Source of the DNA: Pseudomonadota bacterium | GTDB lineage: Bacteria; Desulfobacterota; Binatia; Binatales; Binataceae | Length of the DNA: 64,000 nt | Assembly (NCBI GenBank): GCA_021323945.1 | Contig: JAJPKA010000018.1 | Span: 62,001 to 126,000, forward strand | Direction: 5' to 3' | In this document: positions 10,497-14,648 of the stretch, piece by piece | How the letters are laid out: the number at the start of each line of letters is the position of its first letter | How positions within the stretch are numbered: the first letter of the stretch is position 1 | The notes under the pieces: model-generated | What the model saw: only the letters and a program-made list of their open reading frames with translations | What the model was told of the DNA's origin: nothing | The model's database searches: none | Program-made: the position numbers and the translations under genes

Positions 10497-11174
10497 TTAA
10501 CTCATATGTTCAGAGTGCGGGTTAGCGAATCGAAACGGTCGGGCCCGGCCGGCTCGCAGTTCGGCGCACAGTTCCTCAACACTGTTGACCTCTCGCTCCA
10601 ATTCTGTGGCACAAGTCATGAACCATTTCGGACTAACGAAGTGCGCGTCGCTACCGCCGACTGCTGTGAGTCCCAGTTTTTCGCATGCCGTGATCGCCGC
10701 AACGTTCTGCTCATGGGTATTCTGGCCATTTATCGCCTCGATCACGCTTAGTGCGGGGCCGACGCGGGCCAATAGATCATCCAGTCTCGGGCCATAGCCG
10801 GAATCACGAAAGGGATGGGCGGGAATGGCAATGCCGCCTTCGCTATGCACGGTTTCGATGATCAGGTGAGCGCGATGCATTCTGGCTTCAAGGTTAAACC
10901 TGCGTCGAAGCTCGCGGGTGACGCCGAAAATCAGCAAGTGACCGAGGTCGGTGTCGGCTTCGATCCCCTTGAAGATCCGAACGCCGAACCGTTCGGCGAG
11001 TTCAGCATATGTGCGGTCCAACTCCGCATCGGTTGGAAAAAGGCGGTGTTCAGTAAAGCAGATGGCGCCCAGTGGCACGGGCGCTCGCGAAGCTGCTTCA
11101 AGGTACTGGTCAGGTGCCACATTGGAATCCGACGACAGCCTGGTATGCACGTGCAGATCAATCAACATAGCCAC
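10497..11174 (-). CDS. PHP domain metal-dependent phosphoesterase
   Basis: The 225-residue protein carries the motifs of the PHP family: IDLHVHTRLSSDS (metal-binding H-x-H), CFTEHR, FKGIEADT, AIPAHPFR and GGSDAH. These form a trinuclear metal site that hydrolyses phosphate esters or nucleotides. Length and motif order fit stand-alone YciV/TrpH-like proteins rather than a polymerase domain. Start at 11174 or two codons later at 11168 (MLIDLHVHT). It follows the kinase gene by 122 bases on the same strand. Confidence 0.9.
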   Translation of the reverse strand: MAMLIDLHVHTRLSSDSNVAPDQYLEAASRAPVPLGAICFTEHRLFPTDAELDRTYAELAERFGVRIFKGIEADTDLGHLLIFGVTRELRRRFNLEARMHRAHLIIETVHSEGGIAIPAHPFRDSGYGPRLDDLLARVGPALSVIEAINGQNTHEQNVAAITACEKLGLTAVGGSDAHFVSPKWFMTCATELEREVNSVEELCAELRAGRARPFRFANPHSEHMS

Positions 11175-11296: not shown

Positions 11297-12907
11297 TTAA
11301 TCCTCGGAGTCCTCGCCGGTCACCGTGAGCTGGTCGTTGAGAGGCGTGAGGCCGACCGTGGCGAGACAGATCGCTTGGACAGCTAACCGATCGTATTCCG
11401 ACGCTACCTTTCCATAAAGCACCAACGTATCGCCTTTGAGGCGAAATCTGACTGCAGAGTACCCCTGCGCGTCAAGCCTGTAGCGCAACTCAGCGAGCCG
11501 GGCACTGCGGGCAGCGTAATTATAGTCGCCTGAATCCGGATATTCGTCGGGCGGAATTGCTGCGTGCGCGCGTGGCATTTCGTCCGGGCCCTCATCGGAA
11601 CCTGTGCTATAGCCCGGCGGTACCGGATTATCGGTACGCGAAATCGATCTGATGACTTCAGCCGCCAAAAAGCCGGCAGCGAAGATCAGGGCGAGCACCA
11701 AGAATGGGCGTCTTAGGCCATTTCGCCGAATCCTCTTGGGAGAGGGGTTGAGCGGCGGATAAGTTCCCAGCACGGTTCGGCTTAGGTTCTCGGGCGACTG
11801 ACCGTGGGATAACACCACAGTTTGATCGCCGGGGTTGGCTGAGTCCGGAAACACCGTTAGCCGGCTCAGATTGGCAGCGCAGTACGAGCAAAACCGCGAG
11901 TCGGCGGGGATGCGACGCGAACACAGCGGGCAGCTTATTTCAGTTGTAGCGCTCAGCAGGGTTGGCCCAGGAGCGGTTGAACCGCGCTTTGCGCCCAAAC
12001 CTAGGTTGACGGTGGGATTAGAGGAAATGTCACCGAGCGGAAGCTTGAGCTGCGATCTGGGGCTTTGATTGGCAGGATTTGAAACCTCCCCAGCGGGATT
12101 GAGCGATTCGTTCTTGATGGCCAGCAGGCAACGCTTAAATTCAGCCGCACTGGGAAGCCGGCTGGCGACATCATAAGCCAGCGCCTGATCGACGAGTGCG
12201 GCCAACCGTGGCTCCAGATTTGGGCAGATCTTCAACAGGGGTGGAAAGCTAAACGGCGCCTCGGCGGCCGGGTCGCGCCCCGAAATTGCATGATGCATTG
12301 TCGCTCCCAAGGCATAAATGTCAGAGCGGGTCTCGACCTTACCTCGGTATTGCTCGGGCGGGGCATAACCTTGGGTGCCGATCATGGTCGCGTTAGAGAG
12401 CGGCTGGAAGTGGCGGGCGATACCGAAGTCGATCAACTTCGCCTGTCCGTCCGCGGTGACCATAATGTTGGATGGTTTCAAATCCCGGTAGATTACCGGT
12501 GGCTCGAGGTGGTGCAGATAATCGAGCGTATCGAGCACCTGCAAGGCGATGTCGACCACTTGCTCGGATGGCAGCCTGCCACCATTTTGCTTGATTTGGT
12601 CTTCCAGCGTGACACCGTCTATATATTCCATCACCAGGAAGTGATGGTTGCCCTCACTGAAGCGGTCGAATACGCGGGGGATATGTTCGTTACTCAGCTG
12701 TGCCAGCATATCGGCCTCGCGTTGGAAGGCGCTAATCGCTTGCTGCTGGGCTTCAGGGCTGGTAAACGCATCCACCATTTCGGCCAGTGCACATTTGCGG
12801 GCCGCGAGGCGCAGGTCCTCGGCCAGGTACACGAGCTTCATTCCGCCACCGCCGAGCAGCTTGACGATCCGATAGCGGCCGCCAATTATCGTGTGCGGAG
12901 CGATCAT
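11297..12907 (-). CDS. membrane Ser/Thr protein kinase with zinc ribbon; beta-3 lysine replaced
   Basis: 536 residues. The N-terminal 260 form a Hanks-type kinase with a glycine loop GGGGMKLVY (19-27), an alpha-C Glu in FQREAD, the catalytic loop YRDLKPSN (Asp142), DFG at 160-162 and APPE in the activation region. The VAIK-equivalent segment reads CALA (39-42), so the lysine is Ala42, while Lys24 sits in the glycine loop at the position used by eukaryotic WNK kinases. Then come a zinc ribbon (Cys326, 329, 340, 343), a transmembrane helix (about 401-419) and a C-terminal BON-like domain (about 466-530), probably outside the cytoplasm. It lies six bases after a zinc-ribbon membrane gene, itself overlapping a double-FHA gene. 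It probably phosphorylates Ser/Thr residues read by those FHA domains. Confidence 0.88.
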   Translation of the reverse strand: MIAPHTIIGGRYRIVKLLGGGGMKLVYLAEDLRLAARKCALAEMVDAFTSPEAQQQAISAFQREADMLAQLSNEHIPRVFDRFSEGNHHFLVMEYIDGVTLEDQIKQNGGRLPSEQVVDIALQVLDTLDYLHHLEPPVIYRDLKPSNIMVTADGQAKLIDFGIARHFQPLSNATMIGTQGYAPPEQYRGKVETRSDIYALGATMHHAISGRDPAAEAPFSFPPLLKICPNLEPRLAALVDQALAYDVASRLPSAAEFKRCLLAIKNESLNPAGEVSNPANQSPRSQLKLPLGDISSNPTVNLGLGAKRGSTAPGPTLLSATTEISCPLCSRRIPADSRFCSYCAANLSRLTVFPDSANPGDQTVVLSHGQSPENLSRTVLGTYPPLNPSPKRIRRNGLRRPFLVLALIFAAGFLAAEVIRSISRTDNPVPPGYSTGSDEGPDEMPRAHAAIPPDEYPDSGDYNYAARSARLAELRYRLDAQGYSAVRFRLKGDTLVLYGKVASEYDRLAVQAICLATVGLTPLNDQLTVTGEDSED

Positions 12908-12913
12908 ACGGTC

Positions 12914-13309
12914 TTAACCACCTGGCGTTGAGGCCTGGTCCGCCGCACTGCTGCTGGCATGCGATCGCTGCTGCGGTGACCTCGCGACAATTGTCTGAGG
13001 CACAGCGCCTGAAACCGCCGCATTACCCGCGCATATCATCCACAGTAGAACTCCAATAGGCGGTGCATACAGCAAAAAAACCGTCACGAAAATAAACCAA
13101 AGCAAGCCACGAGCCGCTTGTCCTTTGTACAATTGACCAAGGCCTGGGATGACGCTGAGGAAGATGGCGAGCATAGGTCGCCAGGAAATATTGTCGCGGA
13201 TCAACAGCAGCGGCGCGCCGCAATTTTTGCAAAACTTGGCGTCGGCCACGACCACTGGCGAACCGCATTGTGAACAAAAGCGAGGACGTTCCGTGTGACG
13301 CTCACGCAT
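12914..13309 (-). CDS. zinc-ribbon membrane protein, kinase/FHA cassette
   Basis: The ATG at 13309 overlaps the stop of the FHA gene by eight bases, which suggests translational coupling. The 131-residue product has a zinc ribbon (FCSQCG and FCKNCG) followed by two hydrophobic helices: MLAIFLSVIPGLGQLYKG, the latter part typical of TM2-type small membrane proteins, and LLWFIFVTVFLLYAPPIGV. A Ser/Ala-rich tail ends the protein. No enzymatic motif is visible. Placed between the FHA protein and the kinase, it is probably a membrane component of the same signalling unit. Confidence 0.75.
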   Translation of the reverse strand: MRERHTERPRFCSQCGSPVVVADAKFCKNCGAPLLLIRDNISWRPMLAIFLSVIPGLGQLYKGQAARGLLWFIFVTVFLLYAPPIGVLLWMICAGNAAVSGAVPQTIVARSPQQRSHASSSAADQASTPGG

Positions 13310-14648
13310 GGAAAGTGAAGAGCGCGTCGCCCAGCCGAAGTGTGTCACCACCTGCCAGCGAGGCTTCGGTCACGCGACGGTCGCCGAGCCAGGTGCCGTT
13401 CTGGCTACCGAGGTCGCGCAGTAGATAGCTTCCATTGCGGCACTCGATGCTAGCGTGATGACGCGATACCGAAGCATCGGATACGACAATATCGTTGTCC
13501 AATGCCCTGCCGATGCGTGTGGGCGCGTCAGCCCGCAAAGGAAATCGTTGTCCGCCAGCATTTACCAGATAGGCATTTGCGATCGCGGGCTGGGCGGCTC
13601 GGCGATCGGTCCCGGTCGAGTTGGCCGGCGCGAGTTCGGGTTGTGCCGAGACGTCACTTGACTTTGGCGATGCCATCTGAACGGGCCGTAGTTGTGCTTG
13701 CGCAGTTCGTCGATCGGTCCGAAGGTGAAAGGTCAACTCATAATTGCTGATTTTTAATCGGTCACCATCTTTTAATTGGACTGTTTCGACGCGGTTGCCA
13801 TTCACGAAGGTTCCCGCCTGTACTGCTAGATTTTTGAGCGAGTAGGTATCACCCTGACGCGTGATGATGGCGTGGCGCGGCTGAACGCCCGGATCACCGA
13901 ACAACCCGATTGGATTTTCTTCCGCCCGCCCAAGCGTCGTCGCGCTTCCCTCGAGGCGGAACTGGCGGCCTTTAAGCCGGCCGGCCTCGACCACGAGCCA
14001 CGCGGATTTGGTCAATTGATGAACGAGTCCGATAAAGAAGCCAATGGCCAGACCGATCACGCAAAAGCCGATAAGTCGCGAGGCTAATCCGCTTTGACTG
14101 ACCCTGCCAATCAGATCAAACCCCGCACCCCCGACCAGGCCACCCACCAATCCGCCAAGCCCGCCCTTGAGTGCATTGGGCAGCGAAAGGCTGGCTAGCC
14201 CGACCCCGATACCGAGCATCAGGCCCATAAATGCCCAACCAATCAGTCGCCCCGCCACCAGATAAAGCTCGGAACCCTGATGCCCGATGCGCCAACCGCC
14301 TGCGCTGAGGATTTTGCTGAAAATAAGATCCGAGTAGTAGGTCTCGGGCAAAGCGAGTACCAAGCAGACCGCAAAACCAATTAAAAACCGCCGTTTTGCG
14401 GCCGAAGTGAGCTGCAGCGAGTTATCCTGCGCGGCGAGAATCATGCCGCCGATCATCCCTGCGACTATGGCGACTGAAACGATCCCGGCGACGATGCTGG
14501 CGGTTGATTGTTGCTCAGTTATCGAATGACCGTGCGTAGCGATTTCGACCGGAATCCACCCGATGGCTCCGCCCAACAACCCGGCGAGCGCCTTGAAGCT
14601 CAGTTCCCGACGGTCAACTGCTTCGCTTATTGGCGATAACGCATTCAC
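13302..14648 (-). CDS. polytopic membrane protein with two FHA domains
   Basis: The 448-residue protein starts at a GTG. Residues 15-215 contain several glycine-rich hydrophobic segments, including GLLGGLVGGLVGGAGF, so probably five or six membrane helices. Two FHA domains follow. The first, about 225-310, has TTLGRAEENPI but QPRHA in place of the usual S-x-x-H. The second, about 370-447, has TRIGRALDNDIVV, SVSRHHASI and GSQNGTWLG, the full phosphothreonine-binding set. So the second domain should bind pThr and the first may be altered. It probably recognises proteins phosphorylated by the kinase two genes downstream. Confidence 0.88.
   Translation of the reverse strand: MNALSPISEAVDRRELSFKALAGLLGGAIGWIPVEIATHGHSITEQQSTASIVAGIVSVAIVAGMIGGMILAAQDNSLQLTSAAKRRFLIGFAVCLVLALPETYYSDLIFSKILSAGGWRIGHQGSELYLVAGRLIGWAFMGLMLGIGVGLASLSLPNALKGGLGGLVGGLVGGAGFDLIGRVSQSGLASRLIGFCVIGLAIGFFIGLVHQLTKSAWLVVEAGRLKGRQFRLEGSATTLGRAEENPIGLFGDPGVQPRHAIITRQGDTYSLKNLAVQAGTFVNGNRVETVQLKDGDRLKISNYELTFHLRTDRRTAQAQLRPVQMASPKSSDVSAQPELAPANSTGTDRRAAQPAIANAYLVNAGGQRFPLRADAPTRIGRALDNDIVVSDASVSRHHASIECRNGSYLLRDLGSQNGTWLGDRRVTEASLAGGDTLRLGDALFTFHA

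Follow-up and report, generated by a model that had tools for sequence, protein, structure and literature searches.

A membrane-anchored bacterial Ser/Thr kinase family with a glycine-loop lysine in place of the beta-3 lysine, probably WNK-like in mechanism

WNK kinases – termed in 2007 the one family of eukaryotic-type kinases that functions with no beta-3 lysine – carry a lysine at the position of PKA residue 55, and this K55 is needed for catalysis (PMC1821047). The lysine is described as sitting in beta-2, and WNK is active with a lysine supplied from that strand (PMC4718504). Chloride binds WNK1 at Leu369/Leu371 and the L369F substitution lowers chloride inhibition of WNK1 (PMC7606576); both the site and the substitution are also treated in PMC13397483. 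The charge has moved to R55 in CAK-chloro (R55/M72; PMC1821047), POMK has a G-loop lysine and the bacterial DLHK pseudokinases have two conserved arginines in beta-2 (PMC12599244), and PRPK/Bud32 is active without a typical beta-3 lysine (PMC4718504). Bacterial kinases have been sorted into 42 families, seven of them rich in pseudokinases (PMC12599244), and the portion of that account used here mentions no loop lysine in any bacterial family. Nor did searches of open-access papers turn up a description of a bacterial WNK-like kinase; the primary atlas of the 42 families may hold such a group.

Here, we analyse a kinase gene in a stretch of 64,000 nucleotides of Binataceae DNA (hereafter the window). 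The kinase, its parts and its neighbours are listed in Table 1. Its beta-3 segment reads CALAEM, and the beta-3 lysine of the VAIK motif is absent. An initial annotation had placed a lysine in the glycine loop and an alanine at the position of the beta-3 lysine, and had reported the alpha-C glutamate, the catalytic Asp142 and DFG as present; translation of the ORF bears out both residues and their codons, and Glu64, Arg141-Asp142, Asn147 and Asp160-Phe-Gly are all intact. Paired with PKA along GxGxFG, G19 corresponds to G50, G21 to G52, M23 to F54 and K24 to G55, and further along A42 corresponds to K72, E64 to E91, D142 to D166, N147 to N171 and D160 to D184; PMC1821047 names the PKA residues G52, F54, G55, K72, E91, D166, N171 and D184, and their pairing with the window kinase is ours. 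The WNK-like placement that the annotation had proposed is exact, Lys24 falling at PKA position 55, where the third glycine of the loop would stand, as PMC1821047 gives for WNK. On the evidence of sequence, we consider it likely that this is an active, membrane-anchored PknB-like Ser/Thr kinase in which the lysine that holds the ATP phosphates has moved from beta-3 to the glycine loop, in the manner of Lys233 of WNK1.

Table 1. Coordinates in the window of the kinase, its functional positions and the adjoining genes
Feature	Position	Strand	Conservation or evidence
Membrane Ser/Thr kinase ORF, 536 aa: kinase domain, linker with Zn ribbon, one TM segment, C-terminal BON-like domain (weak evidence)	11297..12907	-	
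Kinase domain (residues 1-265)	12113..12907	-	Pfam PF00069, 3.7e-36
Glycine loop GGGGMKLVY (residues 19-27)	12827..12853	-	
Lys24, codon AAG; PKA position 55, the WNK lysine position	12836..12838	-	49/49 rows, 48 genes
Ala42, codon GCC; beta-3 lysine position (PKA 72)	12782..12784	-	49/49 rows, 48 genes
Glu64, alpha-C glutamate	12716..12718	-	49/49 rows
Asp142, catalytic aspartate of YRD	12482..12484	-	49/49 rows
Asp160, metal-binding aspartate of DFG	12428..12430	-	49/49 rows
Activation-loop Thr174 to Thr178	12374..12388	-	both Thr in 49/49 rows
Thr316, linker; putative phosphorylation / FHA docking site	11960..11962	-	28/28
Zn ribbon CPLC...CSYC, linker	11879..11932	-	four Cys in 28/28
Thr363, with Leu366 a putative FHA docking motif of pT-x-x-L type	11819..11821	-	Thr 27/28, Leu366 25/28
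Transmembrane segment, approximately residues 402-419	11651..11704	-	hydrophobic stretch judged by eye
C-terminal BON-like domain (weak evidence)	11321..11521	-	weak fold matches and AF2 model
Upstream gene, Zn-ribbon and TM protein	12914..13351	-	25/27 loci at E 1e-5
Upstream FHA gene, multi-TM (by eye), two FHA domains	13302..14648	-	27/27 loci; Pfam FHA 2.4e-36, two stretches
Second FHA domain	13329..13520	-	R381, S395, R396, H398, N417 and G418 in 27/27

An orthologue (E < 1e-120) is present in 40 of 41 Binataceae genomes, the sole genome without one being 53% complete. All 40 orthologues, as read from their sequences, have K24/A42 (K/A below, for the residues at positions 24 and 42), so the pair cannot be put down to chance or to a sequencing error, and the K/A pair recurs in eight paralogues (52-63% identical) drawn from seven genomes. 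Six exact peptide patterns run against the genome contigs returned 27 loci with a relative, which form part of the 40 orthologue genomes and are not an independent set; K24, A42, E64, D142 and D160 are present in 27/27. Across the whole K/A set (49 rows representing 48 genes, one of them repeated), E64, D142, K144, N147, D160, F161, G162, T174 and T178 are kept in 49/49 rows. The only lysines retained in at least 80% of these rows are K24 and K144 (49/49) and K157 (47/49), and a re-alignment that would place a different lysine in beta-3 is therefore ruled out, there being no other conserved lysine in the N-lobe.

A MAFFT alignment of 118 kinase genes, which also takes in distant canonical kinases from the phylum and a second K/A family described below, contains 53 K/A genes (48 plus 5), 57 G/K, 5 S/K and 3 A/K; sampling started from K/A queries with near matches retained, and the set is not a random census. 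None of the 118 has both lysines or neither. The annotation had suggested asking of homologues whether the loop lysine and the beta-3 alanine always occur together, and they do (49/49 K/A rows, and throughout the 118 genes); a homologue lacking both lysines and another lysine serving for beta-3 were both looked for, and neither was found. An earlier set of 86 rows (84 genes) comprised 48 K/A, 34 G/K, one S/K (L116) and L033. The last had appeared to be an exception (A24/G42), which proved to be an artefact of an alignment gap, as the sequence carries VAIK; L033 and L117, a Microcystis plasmid sequence whose tblastn alignment reads GGFG and VIK, were excluded before the 118-gene count. Between the 49 K/A rows and 35 G/K rows (34 genes, again with one repeated), only columns 24, 42 and 127 out of 265 share no residue, column 127 being Thr/Ala in the K/A set versus Val/Ile in the G/K set.

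The genes of the operon follow the order FHA – Zn-ribbon – kinase, with the stop of the Zn-ribbon/TM gene 6 bases before the kinase start. We take the six invariant residues of the second FHA domain (Table 1) to be those that bind phosphothreonine, and their conservation in the same operon argues for an active kinase. Thr316 and Thr363 of the linker are plausible sites of autophosphorylation and FHA docking, judging by their conservation; the other best-kept linker positions are Ser337 and Ser341 (28/28) and Pro315 (26/28), together with a Q..LPL stretch at 286-291 (24-25/28). The C-terminal domain is alpha-beta-beta-alpha-beta in the AF2 model (mean pLDDT 68, and 73-86 across ten-residue blocks of the domain). 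The evidence that it is BON-like is weak: the best fold matches are OsmY and DolP, all weak and none at E <= 0.001, and the Pfam BON match falls below cut-off. A gene for a PHP-domain protein lies downstream of the kinase (window 10497-11174, minus strand) in 19/27 related loci; it is approximately 3 kb away in L012, and a contig end cuts it in L018. Elsewhere in the window's genome the K/A paralogue G000:C22:254131 (L030:868-3567) adjoins an FHA-type gene by inspection, forming a second FHA/K/A pair, and there are two PP2C matches.

Loss of the beta-3 lysine, of the HRD aspartate or of the DFG aspartate is the basis of a three-motif rule that counts kinases without the beta-3 lysine as pseudokinases unless activity has been shown (PMC12599244). 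The window kinase falls under this rule, having lost the beta-3 lysine and having a lysine at 24 instead. Such a pseudokinase would bind nucleotide at best and serve as a scaffold for the FHA protein, with Lys24 supporting structure or nucleotide binding only, and conservation taken alone would fit a nucleotide-binding scaffold equally well. However, the other catalytic residues and the activation-loop threonines are invariant (49/49), without the decay seen in most pseudokinases; the loop lysine and loss of the beta-3 lysine go strictly together; and an invariant phosphothreonine-reading FHA domain is encoded in the same operon. Together, the lysine coupling, the intact catalytic set and the phosphothreonine reader make a dead kinase unlikely, though not impossible. 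The patterns of the seven families in PMC12599244 (decayed HRD/DFG, beta-3 Arg, DYD, DLHK, GLW), compared by description, are absent from the window kinase, the K/A rows having intact YRD and DFG and a beta-3 Ala in 49/49.

Among other kinase-fold proteins that do without the usual beta-3 lysine, DLHK proteins have arginine and are classed as pseudokinases, the POMK lysine pairs with the glutamate of DLD, and CAK-chloro has an arginine at 55, has lost the alpha-C glutamate and is not a protein-kinase family of such type. A kinase-fold enzyme with another chemistry, such as AMPylation as in SelO, has in its favour the atypical lysine placement and the precedents of SelO and SidJ (PMC12599244), but those two have altered motifs in the HRD region (PMC12599244) where the window kinase has canonical YRDLKPSN and DFG, and the neighbouring genes fit phosphothreonine signalling; we regard it as very improbable. 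From the conservation and the operon context we infer that the kinase is alive.

An AF2 model of residues 1-270 (mean pLDDT 83.6, pTM 0.83; activation-loop residues 163-173 below pLDDT 50) places K24 as the first residue of beta-2 (24-31), A42 within beta-3 (37-45) and E64 within alpha-C (51-70). The best structural match is PknB 5u94 (Z 27.4, rmsd 2.7, 244 aligned, 32%), and the nearest solved structures are those of the bacterial PknB (approximately 32%), PknA and StkP. With kinases of the PknB / StkP / Stk1 type the window kinase shares not only the best sequence and structure matches but also the plan of kinase, TM segment and outer domain and the FHA partner gene; the Pkinase fold, alpha-C Glu, HRD-Asp, catalytic Asn and DFG are all in place. 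Unlike them it lacks the VAIK lysine and any PASTA match, the NCBIfam PASTA-kinase model NF033483 giving 202.3 bits against a cut-off of 450.

The likeness to WNK kinases (Lys233 of WNK1) consists of the lysine at PKA 55, a residue other than lysine at PKA 72, the alpha-C glutamate and the catalytic aspartates. The beta-3 residue is Cys in WNK and Ala here, and where WNK1 has Leu369/Leu371 around DLG the window kinase has DFG-I (Phe161, Ile163); with Phe161 in 49/49 rows, the WNK chloride site is absent. Moreover, unlike WNK it is a bacterial membrane kinase with a Zn ribbon and a BON-like domain, 25-26% identical to the WNK3 and WNK1 structures. Both of these are among the best 50 structural matches (WNK3 5o21: Z 24.0, rmsd 3.3, 244 aligned, 25%; WNK1 5w7t: Z 24.0, rmsd 2.8, 243 aligned, 26%), although many other eukaryotic kinases score similarly among the matches listed, and WNK3 is also among the best 60 matches of a profile search. 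These matches and the identical lysine position would be expected of a true WNK homologue acquired horizontally from a eukaryote. We find that origin scarcely credible, as it is to canonical paralogues in these same bacteria that the kinase is closest (49-53% identity), the solved structures nearest to it come from bacteria, and Phe161 stands where WNK1 has its chloride-site Leu369. Shared ancestry with eukaryotic WNKs is likewise disfavoured by the closeness of the canonical paralogues, the tree described below having been built without WNK sequences. The window kinase is likely WNK-like in mechanism and not a member of the WNK family, and convergence is the most likely account of the resemblance.

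Canonical kinases of the same genomes, approximately 45-55% identical, read GGMG together with CAIKEM or VAVKEM in the part of the listed Binataceae matches that was read. Two from the window's own genome are 49-53% identical to the window kinase, depending on alignment. Because the closest relatives outside the K/A group are canonical and reside in the same genome, the relocation is placed inside a bacterial PknB-like clade. Seven Pkinase matches stand above the cut-off in that genome, three being K/A, three having the beta-3 lysine and one being degenerate. The degenerate one (L034:787-2850) sits between two canonical kinases of contig C14 and encodes a 687-aa protein that combines a Zn ribbon, a kinase domain with NDICP in the HRD region, and a domain of PP2C type. 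A family profile run against 395 genomes of the phylum gave K/A rows at >=156 bits, from the family itself only, canonical rows of the family at 89-128 bits, and rows outside the family at <=84 bits, of which those read have the beta-3 lysine; scoring was limited to 13 candidates per genome, and this search could therefore have passed over a remote K/A kinase.

A second K/A family was reached with a query consensus, which gave nine matches (63-66% identity) from two of the phylum's genomes; five of the matches (L148, L149, L173, L174 and L176) were read. Seven of the nine lie in one genome (G009), five of these on one contig. The sequences read have GEGGKKKVY followed by VAFALIK or VALALIK, with Lys at position 24 and Ala at beta-3, and they retain the alpha-C Glu, HRD and DFG (5/5 throughout). 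Open frames of 1280-1295 aa are present for 6/9 matches, and by inspection Zn ribbons precede the kinase and an ATPase-like region follows it. Two members compared with the window kinase are 32-34% identical to it, and the second family is one residue shorter between beta-2 and beta-3. The two families differ in architecture and occupy separate tree branches; what they have in common is the loop lysine, the beta-3 alanine and the intact catalytic motifs. The second family makes a slightly weaker case, because, only if a gap is allowed, a lysine three positions downstream could be brought to beta-3. Of seven further sequences, five being relatives of the second family from viral contigs and two being plasmid loci, none has the loop lysine; the beta-3 lysine is present in 6/7, L182 having a gap there in the alignment. 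For the window family, neither a DNA pattern nor the family profiles found any match or relative in viral contigs, and phage records gave no matches; 781 plasmid records contain a match (best 46%), and the two that were read both have the beta-3 lysine.

In a tree of 75 chosen rows, from which the two diagnostic columns (24 and 42) were omitted, the K/A label needs two changes, and two are forced by starred branches. A single K/A origin occurs in 0/200 bootstrap trees, and shuffled labels need 21 changes on average, with 0/500 as low as two. The 20 rows of window-family K/A kinases cluster as a single group (92/90, on a branch that is not starred), which joins the canonical kinases of the same family weakly (83/46), and the 5 rows of the second K/A family cluster together (100/100), set apart by a starred branch. 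Long branches meet in this tree, and its two-group result rests on the starred branches. By this measure the phylum appears to have acquired the K/A change on at least two separate occasions.

As to mechanism, we infer that Lys24 would contact ATP: it would extend into the space vacated by the beta-3 lysine, contact the ATP phosphates and pair with Glu64, taking the role of Lys233 in WNK1, and Ala42 would leave room for it. In Binataceae the change probably happened once, in an ancestor of their K/A kinases, by a linked double exchange in a canonical paralogue. The kinase would then phosphorylate threonines, perhaps including Thr316 and Thr363 in its own linker, for the FHA protein encoded beside it to read, in response to a signal that possibly comes from the BON-like domain beyond the membrane.

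In wider terms, the sequences make it likely that the WNK solution evolved independently among Hanks-type kinases of bacteria, at least twice within a single phylum, in a form that is active, family-wide and coupled to FHA recognition of phosphothreonine. Counting WNKs, lysine relocation would have three origins; if this is true, it is a path that evolution can take repeatedly, not an invention made once in eukaryotes. Since canonical sister kinases about 50% identical are present in the same genomes, the movement of a catalytic lysine can be tested directly in a simple system, including the order of the changes and the helper residues. A protein classed as a pseudokinase because it lacks the VAIK lysine may be an active kinase.
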